A stretch of 64,000 bases of DNA from Microbacterium sp. LWS13-1.2 (lineage in GTDB: Bacteria; Actinomycetota; Actinomycetes; Actinomycetales; Microbacteriaceae), in NCBI RefSeq assembly GCF_040144835.1, contig NZ_CP151632.1, positions 1,364,001 to 1,428,000 of the forward strand, read 5' to 3'. A model generated the notes under the pieces. That model was not told where the DNA came from. It searched no databases and was given only the letters and a program-made list of their open reading frames with translations. Both the position numbers and the translations under genes were made by a program. Shown here in pieces: positions 60,107 through 63,571 of this stretch. Position 1 is the stretch's first letter, and the number at the start of each line of letters is the position of its first letter.

Positions 60107-60194
60107 GGAGGATTCGCCTAGTGGCCTATGGCGCACGCTTGGAAAGCGTGTTGGGTGCAAGCCCTCGGGGGTTCGAATCCCCCATCCTCCGCCA
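60107..60194 (+). tRNA. tRNA-Ser (GGA anticodon), integration site
   Basis: 88 bases with encoded CCA. Acceptor GGAGGAT/ATCCTCC with discriminator G, anticodon arm CACGC-TTGGAAA-GCGTG giving GGA, long variable arm TTGGGTGCAAGCCCTC, T-arm GGGGGTTCGAATCCCCC. The gene is intact; the element to its right probably regenerated its 3' end on integration. Confidence 0.96.
60150..60194. other. Probable attachment site (att) within tRNA-Ser 3' half
   Basis: Tyrosine integrases of this type commonly recombine within the T-arm and 3' end of a tRNA gene. The element genes start right after, and the partner att copy would lie beyond the right edge, so the exact core cannot be set from this window. Confidence 0.5.
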
Positions 60195-60433
60195 CCGTTC
60201 TGCCTAGAAAACACTGGGATCGCGACCTCGCCCGATCTTGCGTGACACGCGTACTGGCACAGTTATCGTTCACTGTCTGGCCAACGCGGCCGGAAGTCCC
60301 GCTTGCACACCTCTCGTGTCCCGGCCAAATCCGGCCATGGATGAAACGTGACCGCATGTGCGCTAGCGGTCTGCTGACACGCCACGTCCCATTGAGTGAC
60401 AGGTTCGCCTGTACGCCGATTTAGTCGCCACGC

Positions 60434-60455
60434 GCCGAGGAGCGCGCTCTTCGGC
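60434..60455 (-). terminator. Hairpin after the 394-residue cargo gene
   Basis: GCCGAGGAGCGCGCTCTTCGGC folds on itself with one G-T pair, 29 bases beyond the stop of the minus-strand gene. No T-tract. Confidence 0.5.
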
Positions 60456-60483
60456 GATTCAGTTGCTCGCTTCGAAAGTGCGG

Positions 60484-61668
60484 CTACTCGTCGTCCTCGA
60501 GCGCCGAATCATCCCAAACGGTTTGCTGAATTCCGGCGGGTCCCTCAGCGGGCGTTGTCTGGCCAACATCCGATGCGTGATAGAGCCACCAATCTCGTCC
60601 GTCCTTCTCGAGCGTTCCCGAGAGCTTCAGCCATTGGTGGGCGGCGTGGGCCGCCACCGCGGTGTCGTACTGCTCCGGTGTTAGGCGCACACGCACACGT
60701 CGTGCCGCTGCACCCTTCATCACGTCGACGCGAACGAGACGAATCGGCGCGGCGGTCGAGTTGTCGAGGAGGCTAACCTCGCCCACGATCTCAACGGGAG
60801 TCGGTTCAGGAACCTTCGCGAACGAAGCGGCCACTCGGTCCAGAACGGGTGCCTCGACGGCGTCAAACGTAATCTCTCGAGTTGCTGTAGAGGCCTCTCC
60901 TCGCTGAACGGTAACCGCGGCGTCGCCATCTCGTGCCAGGGCGGCGAGAGACCTAATCAACTCGAACGAGACGCCCTCCGGCACGAGGTCTTCGAACATC
61001 TCCATACGAGGCGATCGCTTGTATTCCGTGAGGGCATCCCGCACCGCGGCGATGGAGTTCTCGAACACATCAACGATCGCGCGCCCCGAAACAACATCGG
61101 CCTTGCGTTGATCGACCTTGGCAGCTTCTTCGGACTTCTTTGAGACGTGGAAACGAGTGGACGCGGGCACGTGGGCAGTGACGATGAAGCTGCCGACCTC
61201 TGTCTGCCCCATGAACACCTGCTCCATGAAGGTTTTTGCCAGGTAGCGACTCGCCTTTCCCTGCACCGATCGCTTACTCCGGACTGCACGTGCTGCGGAG
61301 ACAAGCGACTCTCTCGCGGCAGCGTAGATAGCTTCCCCCTCGATCCAAGGGATCAAGCCGGCGTCGACTGACGTCTGTTTCTGCCACTTGGTGGAATCAA
61401 GGTCGGCTGCGGCGGAGATCAGAAGCAGCGCTTCCAGTCGCTCGGCTTCGGCGCCATACCGGCGAAGAATGTGGCGGCGCGCGCGTTCGAGCAGCACGGC
61501 ATAGTCGCCCGCCTCGGGGTTGATCGGGACGATCACCTCGTCAGAATCGGTCTCTTCGGGCGTCCAGACCTCGTAGCGCCCGAGCGCCTTAGAAGCTGGC
61601 GCCCAGGAGAGACGACGCAGGAGTGCGGTTACGATCTCCGCCGCATCGGTGGCGAGCTCCAGGCTCAC
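60484..61668 (-). CDS. Unrecognised cargo protein paired with DUF4365 protein
   Basis: 394 residues, soluble, acidic end (DDSALEDDE). I cannot assign a known domain: there is no P-loop, nuclease or transmembrane motif. It looks built of three parts: an N-terminal region with VIVPINPEAGDYAVLLERARRHIL, a middle with AKTFMEQVFMGQTEVGSFIVTAHVP followed by a Lys/Glu-rich stretch, and a C-terminal beta-type region (RRVRVRLTPEQYDTAVAAHAAHQWLKLSGTLEKDG), perhaps an OB-like fold. I have a vague memory of similar actinobacterial hypothetical proteins. The GTG start overlaps the DUF4365 stop as GTGA, so the two are made together. Confidence 0.8.
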   Translation of the reverse strand: MSLELATDAAEIVTALLRRLSWAPASKALGRYEVWTPEETDSDEVIVPINPEAGDYAVLLERARRHILRRYGAEAERLEALLLISAAADLDSTKWQKQTSVDAGLIPWIEGEAIYAAARESLVSAARAVRSKRSVQGKASRYLAKTFMEQVFMGQTEVGSFIVTAHVPASTRFHVSKKSEEAAKVDQRKADVVSGRAIVDVFENSIAAVRDALTEYKRSPRMEMFEDLVPEGVSFELIRSLAALARDGDAAVTVQRGEASTATREITFDAVEAPVLDRVAASFAKVPEPTPVEIVGEVSLLDNSTAAPIRLVRVDVMKGAAARRVRVRLTPEQYDTAVAAHAAHQWLKLSGTLEKDGRDWWLYHASDVGQTTPAEGPAGIQQTVWDDSALEDDE

Positions 61669-62216
61669 GGCGCACCCCCTTTGCCGATCCGGACCATCAT
61701 GTCGCACAGCGCACGGTCATCGAAGCGTTGCGTGAAAGGTGCCGTGACCGTCGGCTCCGCGGCGGCACTCGACGGCATCCCCTCGAGGTTGACCCAGTAC
61801 GCCGCATTGTGGACCCGCGCACGCTTGTCGGTCGCGTGTATCCAGTCATCTTGGCTGGGGGGTACCGACATTACGATCAGGATCTTCGCGATCGATGGGT
61901 TCGGGGTGCGCAAGTAGTCGTATCGGTCGCGGCTGATCTGGACGCTGAACCCGGTCGTCGTCGACGCGGTGTACGTCGACTTGAGCTGCACTTCCAACCG
62001 CGCGGACTCGACGTGGGTGTGGACGTCACTACGGTGGGTGAGCGTGAGGTCAATGCCCTCGTCGATCTCCGGTCTAGACACCACCACTCCGCTCGCGGCA
62101 GCGATGGCGCGGACCAGTCCCTCCTGATAGGCCTCCATCAGATCGGTGAATCGCTTGGGCGAGCCACGCACGATCGGCGGCAGGGGCAACGGGGCCGGCG
62201 TCCCCACAGTCGACAT
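61665..62216 (-). CDS. DUF4365 protein, PD-(D/E)xK nuclease-like
   Basis: 183 residues. After a Pro-rich start come Glu29, GID (Asp56) and the strand motif LEVQLKST with Glu75, Gln77 and Lys79, the spacing expected for a PD-(D/E)xK-type core; the later AAYWVNLEG also fits DUF4365. Such proteins are suspected nucleases or DNA-binding proteins. I chose the ATG at 62216, 6 nt after a TANNNT box, over the GTG at 62222. First gene of the two-gene cargo unit in the tRNA-Ser element. Confidence 0.75.
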   Translation of the reverse strand: MSTVGTPAPLPLPPIVRGSPKRFTDLMEAYQEGLVRAIAAASGVVVSRPEIDEGIDLTLTHRSDVHTHVESARLEVQLKSTYTASTTTGFSVQISRDRYDYLRTPNPSIAKILIVMSVPPSQDDWIHATDKRARVHNAAYWVNLEGMPSSAAAEPTVTAPFTQRFDDRALCDMMVRIGKGGAP

Positions 62217-62222
62217 GTCCAC

Positions 62223-62228
62223 ATGCTA
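62223..62228 (-). promoter_or_regulatory. -10 element for leaderless DUF4365 gene
   Basis: TAGCAT on the minus strand, 6-nt spacer to the ATG at 62216. It gives the cargo pair its own promoter, separate from the integrase. Confidence 0.5.
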
Positions 62229-62344: not shown

Positions 62345-63571
62345 TCAGTCCAATGCGACACGCGACGAGTCCCGCGACAGTAGCTCACCCACGAGATCGG
62401 CAGCACCCCGCTGAAGAGTGCGCACGGCGTGCGAGTAGGTGTTCAGGGTGGTCTGGATGTCAGCGTGTCCGAGGCGCTCGGAAACAATCTTCGGGTGAAC
62501 GCCGGCGCGTAGTAGGAGCGTCGCGTGGGTGTGCCGCAGCTCGTGCAGATGCAGAGCGTCGAGATCCGGGTGGGCCTCCCCGGCCTTGGCCATACGCTCG
62601 CGCCACTGACGGGAGAACTGCGTCGGGTTGTGTGGCCGGCCGAACCGGTTACAAAAGATCAGTTGCTCGCCCCGCGCCAGTTCTGGCGCCACTGCTCGGA
62701 GCATATCCCGCTTTGTACGCAGCGTCGACGCAAGCCGCGCGTCGATATCAACGTTTCGCACGCGGCCGCTCTTGGTCGCGTGAAAGTCGATGACCGGCTT
62801 CTTGCCGGATTCCTTCACGTACGACATAGCGCGGGCGATCGTGATGACGTTGTTCTCGAGGTCAACGTCCTTCCACCTCAGCCCGAGCAGTTCGCCACGC
62901 CGCATACCGGTGCCCAGCAGGGTGAGCCATGCGAGCCAGAGGTAGTCGCCGCTCGACTCCGACCAATCGAGGAACAGTCGGGCGTCCTCCGCCGACCAGG
63001 TCATCATCTCGGGTGGCGCGGCCTCCAGCTTGGTCGGCGGCGAGGCCCGCTTGGCGGCGTTGACCCGCACCAGCCCGTCTTCCAGCGCGTGCTGCAGGAT
63101 CTGTGACACCAACACGTGGATGTGCCGGATAGTCGCCGCACCGAGGGGCTCGCCAACGTGTCCCCGGTCTCTCCTGCCGTCGCGCTCCAACTGGCGGTAG
63201 TACCGGTTCAGCTGGTCCTTCGTGATCTCGCTCAGCGGTGTGCGTCCGAGCGAGGCGGGCTCGACATGCACACGGTAGTGCTTCCGGTAGCCGGCGAGGG
63301 TGGTTGGTCGCACCCGTAGGCCGTCGAAGTACTTCGTTGAGTAGGAGTTGAGCGTCTCGCGTGTCTCCTCGACATGGACTCCCCGCCGGATATCGACCTG
63401 CAGCGCCGTCACTTCCTCACGTGCGGCGCGTTCCGTTTCGAAGCCACGGCGGAATCGGCGCACCAACTCGCCATCGGGACGGGCCACCCAGTACGCGATT
63501 CGGTAGCGCGTTTCGCCTAACGGCGTCGTGTAAGGCGAGATGGTGCCTTCGTGGTTCACGCGCCGCGCCAT
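62345..63571 (-). CDS. Tyrosine recombinase (site-specific integrase)
   Basis: 408 residues. N-terminal arm-binding region, core-binding SAM-like domain (about 75-170), catalytic domain with Arg224 in GTGMRRGELLGLRW, Lys267 in HATKSGR, His343 and Arg346 in HLHELRHTHATLLL, His369 in RLGHA and the nucleophile Tyr379 in LNTYSH. All catalytic residues are present, so it should be active. GAGGAGAGG precedes the ATG. It lies next to an HTH gene with an 11-base gap. It most likely drives insertion at the tRNA-Ser gene. Confidence 0.94.
   Translation of the reverse strand: MARRVNHEGTISPYTTPLGETRYRIAYWVARPDGELVRRFRRGFETERAAREEVTALQVDIRRGVHVEETRETLNSYSTKYFDGLRVRPTTLAGYRKHYRVHVEPASLGRTPLSEITKDQLNRYYRQLERDGRRDRGHVGEPLGAATIRHIHVLVSQILQHALEDGLVRVNAAKRASPPTKLEAAPPEMMTWSAEDARLFLDWSESSGDYLWLAWLTLLGTGMRRGELLGLRWKDVDLENNVITIARAMSYVKESGKKPVIDFHATKSGRVRNVDIDARLASTLRTKRDMLRAVAPELARGEQLIFCNRFGRPHNPTQFSRQWRERMAKAGEAHPDLDALHLHELRHTHATLLLRAGVHPKIVSERLGHADIQTTLNTYSHAVRTLQRGAADLVGELLSRDSSRVALD

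Follow-up and report, generated by a model that had tools for sequence, protein, structure and literature searches.

The 64,000-nt stretch of the Microbacterium sp. LWS13-1.2 chromosome analyzed here (the window; contig NZ_CP151632.1, positions 1,364,001 to 1,428,000) contains, on the minus strand between a tRNA-Ser(GGA) gene and a tyrosine integrase gene, two overlapping genes, referred to as A and B. Both genes match the PADLOC models of system PDC-M02, and the pair is therefore an already catalogued two-gene phage-defence candidate. On balance, we favor the view that A and B form a two-gene anti-phage unit carried as cargo in the slot between the tRNA-Ser and the integrase, with B activating the nuclease A. 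The pair is real and conserved, with A as its predicted nuclease, and it is probably defensive.

Identity and conservation of the pair

Gene A matches the PDC-M02A model (PDLC04276) at 1.8e-62 over residues 15–185 and gene B matches PDC-M02B (PDLC04310) at 1.3e-120 over residues 10–373. The genes are adjacent on the same strand with a 4-nt overlap, as an earlier reading made from the letters alone (the sequence-only reading) had claimed for 60484..62216; two minus-strand open reading frames sharing GTGA were indeed found there. By its sequence, the pair is PADLOC candidate PDC-M02, with putative phage protection. No experimental test of PDC-M02 was found in the literature searched, which excluded preprints and supplements. 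Two applications of PADLOC to Streptomyces (PMC11536984, PMC10117723) name no PDC system in the main text that was available, supplement tables aside, and the available portion of PMC12429752 names only PDC systems other than PDC-M02. The literature retrieved for DUF4365 includes work on short Argonautes.

The two genes travel together. A is directly upstream of B at all 15 named-genome loci and adjoins B at 45 of the 48 loci carrying B, the exceptions being L057, L076, and L085; L057 begins at a contig end, so that any A there would fall outside the sequence. These 48 loci are not all independent, with identical B in L020/L055 and in L017/L052. Pairwise distances of A and of B are correlated with r of 0.94 (n=45), whereas none of 2000 permutations exceeded 0.30; shared ancestry contributes to the correlation. 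Among pairs of more than 80% identity from 8 loci, the ratio of nonsynonymous to synonymous substitution (dN/dS) was 0.11–0.30 for A (28 pairs) and 0.13–0.21 for B (14 pairs). These comparisons show the pairing of A with B to be conserved. The sequence-only reading had said that it would be undone if homologues of the two genes were not found together elsewhere or if a housekeeping fold lacking a nuclease site were predicted; neither is the case, because the homologues co-occur and the predicted fold of A is that of a nuclease.

Gene A, a predicted nuclease

A matches the Pfam family DUF4365 at 1.3e-21, and its predicted fold resembles, by structure comparison, the DREN nuclease of SPARDA (short prokaryotic Argonaute with DREN(DUF4365)-APAZ) systems. 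Alignment with homologues gives a conserved putative site of D58, Q79, and K81 (185-aa numbering), with the pattern D...QxK; the residue called Lys79 in the sequence-only reading is K81 in this numbering. That reading had described an E...D...ExQxK pattern of the PD-(D/E)xK kind. The nuclease fold and D58/Q79/K81 bear it out in part, but position 77, the E of ExQxK, retains glutamate in just 12 of the 49 A homologues (an alignment that holds some loci twice, for example L002 and L049) and was rejected as a catalytic residue. Sequence searches of solved structures with the pair proteins gave nothing convincing. From the predicted fold and the D...QxK residues, A is probably a DREN-type nuclease.

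Gene B, the partner protein

The earlier remark that B has no nameable domain agrees with our scans, in which neither B nor its distant copies have a Pfam or NCBIfam family above cut-off. By sequence, B has no match among PDB chains. Its structure model (pLDDT 79.5, built from 18 sequences) has no match in the PDB at 1e-3, and the near-top domain-level matches are mostly OB folds (SSB 4dam, probability 0.99, E 0.13). In a second structural comparison, covering only residues ~286–378, Z scores reached 9.5, with SilF, toxin B subunits, RPA, and SSB among the matches. In the model, B carries a C-terminal OB-like domain at about residues 286–378. For residues 1–285, VIA-align lists no family, a result that is no evidence for the absence of one; an APAZ-like fold in B has no sequence match, with residues 1–285 barely covered by fold comparison. 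The best viral-model match of B is Q6NE06 of Leptospira phage LE1 (2.0e-17). The B-like gene of LE1 encodes 381 aa, the same length as Q6NE06, and matches PDC-M02B at 9.9e-65 by sequence, which provides an independent check of the B model if the two are, as we assume, the same protein. Across an alignment of 44 B sequences, five residues do not vary: W22, D55, G159, G232, and G351.

The integrative element and its cargo slot

A tyrosine integrase lies by the 3' end of the tRNA, with a direct repeat of that end, as in tRNA-targeting integrative elements. The integrase was called intact in the sequence-only reading, and it is a single open frame (Table 1). The host chromosome, which resembles Microbacterium judging from the closest named homologues, is a single 4.33-Mb contig, in which the 22-bp repeat is present again 37.4 kb away. 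The G+C content of A, B, and the integrase is 0.62–0.65, lower than the 0.71 of the 10 kb that precede the tRNA; because low G+C is confined to about the first 6 kb between the two att copies, the extent of the element as the whole 37.4 kb is in doubt. Among 27 relatives, none matched the attR flank, so no empty site is shown thereby.

Integrase relatives of 80–88% identity occur in 5 of 98 other genomes of the genus, each near tRNA-Ser(GGA). The first ~160 bp, including the tRNA, are common to all six elements, after which the window departs from the others. Its tRNA–integrase gap is 2150 nt and holds only A and B. Three sister elements have gaps of 395, 396, and 285 nt, where no gene was called except one 74-aa open reading frame; a fourth has 2578 nt with an FAD-binding monooxygenase-like gene; and the fifth (G011; L047 6388-18256) has 10429 nt with cation-efflux, P-type ATPase, and DsbD-like genes. 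The A-B pair was found in none of the five in the stretches examined, and a housekeeping role of the pair in the element was rejected on this ground. Because the contents of the slot vary between sister elements, the pair is a passenger, and by sequence it is cargo of the tRNA-Ser integrative element slot, as had been claimed.

Layout of the locus

A comprises 183 aa from the ATG at 62216, or 185 aa if the in-frame GTG at 62222 is used, and ends at 61665. B extends from a GTG start codon at 61668 to 60484; an in-frame GTG further upstream would make it 407 aa. A leaderless promoter had been proposed for the pair. The TAGCAT box is compatible with it, being identical in the copy of genome G278, the only relative aligned, and upstream of the box the DNA of the two diverges; a sigma-70 scan gave no minus-strand site. 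A leaderless transcript of A is a plausible fit to the position of TAGCAT. The proposed hairpin terminator after B did not hold up: the terminator scan had no minus-strand match and folding was no better than that of shuffled sequences (z 0.33), and an intrinsic terminator was thus rejected. A palindrome is present at 60433-60456, in the stretch in question.

Table 1. Coordinates of features at the locus (window positions)
Feature	Position	Strand	Basis or remark
Gene A, DUF4365 / DREN-type PD-(D/E)xK nuclease (predicted)	61665..62216	-	Pfam, PADLOC, predicted fold
Gene B, 394-aa partner, PDC-M02B, with C-terminal OB-like domain (~residues 286–378) in the model	60484..61668	-	
Overlap of A stop and B start, 4 nt, GTGA	61665..61668	-	
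Tyrosine integrase of the element	62345..63571	-	single open frame; integrase and SAM-like domains (Pfam)
tRNA-Ser(GGA), attachment gene	60107..60194	+	
att-like 22-bp direct repeat (tRNA 3' end)	60171..60192	+	repeated 37.4 kb downstream, beyond the window
Element end common to six related elements; variable cargo slot starts about here	60195..60265	+	
TAGCAT, -10-like box	62223..62228	-	ends 6 nt before the A ATG; identical in G278 copy

Beside the integrase, a region that runs past the right end of the window (L021 4083-5680) contains three genes, of 212, 78, and 227 aa. The 78-aa gene is excisionase-like, with an HTH_17 match just below the Pfam cut-off; the other two have no Pfam match, and most sister elements have similar genes adjoining their integrase. 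On the far side of the second att copy (genome 1461594-1461678, L022), arm-like post-tRNA sequence including TGGCACAGTTATCG recurs (compare window 60171-60268). TGGCACAGTTATCG has only two copies in the genome, and the recurrence of the arm-like sequence past the second att could reflect a further element on the right, either in tandem or older.

Relatives and their neighbors

The best-matching PADLOC model of B was found in 54 of 394 genomes of the class, which fall in 11 of 137 genera; the 14 control genomes all lacked it. Within the genus, B has matches in 4 of 295 genomes: the window, G278 (73–74% identical to the window B), and two others whose B is 24–25% identical. In the tree, from which L049 and L050 (broken or partial B), L057, and L085 were left out, the window copy falls together with P0005 and with P0008, which comes from a Microbacterium.

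Defence genes lie close to the pair in these three other genomes of the genus: the candidate pair PDC-M65A/B; type IIG restriction-modification (R-M) with DRT UG22; and type I HsdM with HsdS (a scan of ten selected proteins, three without a match). At four named-genome loci (L007, L008, L017, L018), a restriction, modification, or Fic gene was directly seen beside the pair; three further scanned neighbors, from L009 and L019, had no match at 1e-10. The 102 pooled neighbors from 15 loci matched 100 PADLOC models at 1e-15, not assigned to loci, and 25 models are listed with one member each. All of these are raw counts without a matched background rate.

Relatives of the pair occur in two temperate phages. 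In Leptospira phage LE1, A and B adjoin a type IIG R-M gene (sub-model PDLC03598), and in prophi102-2 the pair forms the first two genes. Searches by tblastn with B in phages, and with A, gave no match. With the distant plasmid B (L076) as query, four phage records matched, of which two represent a single genome, that of LE1; one LE1 record and one Mycobacterium record were examined. In viral contigs, query A2 gave none and query A1 one locus, the B of which is identical to a Bifidobacterium copy. Plasmid matches are in four records, three with A. The PDLC03598 type IIG R-M is beside the pair in both G168 (L050) and LE1 (L089), a recurrent association of distant copies.

The near-core lineage and other points against the favored reading

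The sequence-only reading had called such pairs typical of phage-defence modules. The R-M, DRT, and other defence genes beside relatives, and the two temperate phages, agree with this. The description does not cover the whole family, because a related B is near-core and adjoins thrS (threonyl-tRNA synthetase) in Streptomyces-type genomes. Several observations weigh against the favored reading or against a pure defence-island account. Core-type B (query L066, genome G471) matches 123 of 150 Streptomyces-type genomes at 1e-30, nearly always once, and 27 have no such match; accessory-type B (L020) matches only 3 of the 150 at 1e-60. The thrS-linked loci are without established restriction-type neighbors. 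At L076, a Pigmentibacter plasmid, B is present and the upstream 110-aa gene matches no PDC-M02A model, no A was found at L085, the G278 copy of B is interrupted, and Q79 of A is replaced by A in L013 and by S in L019. What speaks most strongly against a pure defence-island account is the Streptomyces lineage, which would suit either an immune nuclease that became domesticated or a cellular function.

We infer that the genus of the 150 genomes is Streptomyces, since G609, which has the same genus label, has an accessory B identical to that of Streptomyces actinomycinicus. B adjoins thrS in all six stretches examined (L081-L086), which were selected from matches, and A was found at five of these loci. 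Further neighbors are shared by some of the six, with Pfam run on one stretch; a HIT-domain-type gene was called nearby in four, as was a DEDDh exonuclease gene in four. The only PADLOC models matched at 1e-15 by 40 neighbors scanned from the six loci were DEDDh exonuclease (4) and PDC-S48 (4). In the tree, 13 core-type rows form one group (100/100), apart from 6 accessory Streptomycetaceae rows; thrS linkage is established for five of the 13 (L081-L084, L086). An A-B fusion, suggested by long open frames, was rejected, the frames being overlapping ones. The locus tags SCO1532 and SCO1533, possible S. coelicolor copies, gave no literature. PDC-M02B beside thrS in six Streptomyces-type genomes is a fixed chromosomal setting of a catalogued defence candidate.

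Discussion

DREN nucleases are known as Argonaute-controlled effectors. In the A-B unit, A alone might be idle, by analogy with the DREN domain of SPARDA, reportedly idle until its tetramerisation is induced. Through its OB-like domain, B would sense either a replication structure or a nucleic acid linked to the phage, for which single-stranded DNA would be the simplest assumption; B would assemble A and switch it on. Activated A may then cut phage DNA, and perhaps host DNA, so that infection would be stopped directly or by loss of the cell. We infer from the above that A is the effector, that B is a nucleic acid-binding sensor or activator, and that the outcome is phage defence.

The near-core lineage would also fit a cellular DNA-processing or repair pair, in which an OB-fold loader serves a nuclease acting on junctions or single strands, and which would be core in Streptomyces and travel as an accessory elsewhere. 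We regard this as unlikely: elsewhere the pair is patchy, with one of the three other copies in the genus broken and two highly divergent, and its settings include the slot of an element, the vicinity of defence genes, and temperate phages. The mobile settings of the pair, together with the tight coupling and co-divergence of A and B, would suit a toxin-antitoxin system in which A is a toxic nuclease and B its inhibitor, stabilizing the element and possibly acting through abortive infection. Against it are the large size of B with its OB-like part, the A-then-B order, and the near-core retention in Streptomyces-type genomes; such an order and such retention are unusual for addiction modules, and we consider this explanation rather improbable. 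The location of the pair between att and integrase might also suggest that it serves the integration, replication, or transfer of the element itself and is not cargo. This is very hard to reconcile with its absence from the examined stretches of five sister elements, four of which have the 227-aa gene, and with the occurrence of A and B elsewhere among quite other neighbors.

A broader and quite tentative proposal is that PDC-M02 is an Argonaute-free cousin of SPARDA in which an OB-fold sensor switches a DREN nuclease, and that one lineage has departed from the mobile defence pool to settle as a fixed chromosomal pair next to thrS in the majority of Streptomyces, where it would act as an innate immune nuclease made constitutively or would have been recruited to a cellular task. 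If true, the same DREN effector would be reused under a sensor other than Argonaute, in a widespread pair, and the Streptomyces lineage would let one ask whether an immune candidate can become part of the core genome. A catalogue match to PDC-M02 in a Streptomyces genome does not by itself indicate a mobile defence island. The link to a DREN effector without Argonaute and the near-core lineage are of specialist interest.

Among the closest known systems, archaeal Hjc resolvases and the homing endonuclease I-Ssp6803I are only 9–16% identical to A in the aligned part, and we know of no B-like partner for them. Type II restriction-modification differs in that no methyltransferase family is found by Pfam in A, B, or the integrase. 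SPARDA shares with A the predicted DREN fold and the D...QxK site (PMC12205087, in the text available); the A-B unit has no Argonaute, with no Piwi in the Pfam scan of A, B, and integrase, and A, at 185 aa, stops where its nuclease domain stops and carries no APAZ fusion. With PDC-M02 (PADLOC-DB 2.0.0, 2023), the A and B models are matched nearly full length by adjacent genes in the same order. PDC-M02 is a catalogue entry, whereas the window copy is cargo in a tRNA-Ser slot and the related Streptomyces-type lineage is near-core.
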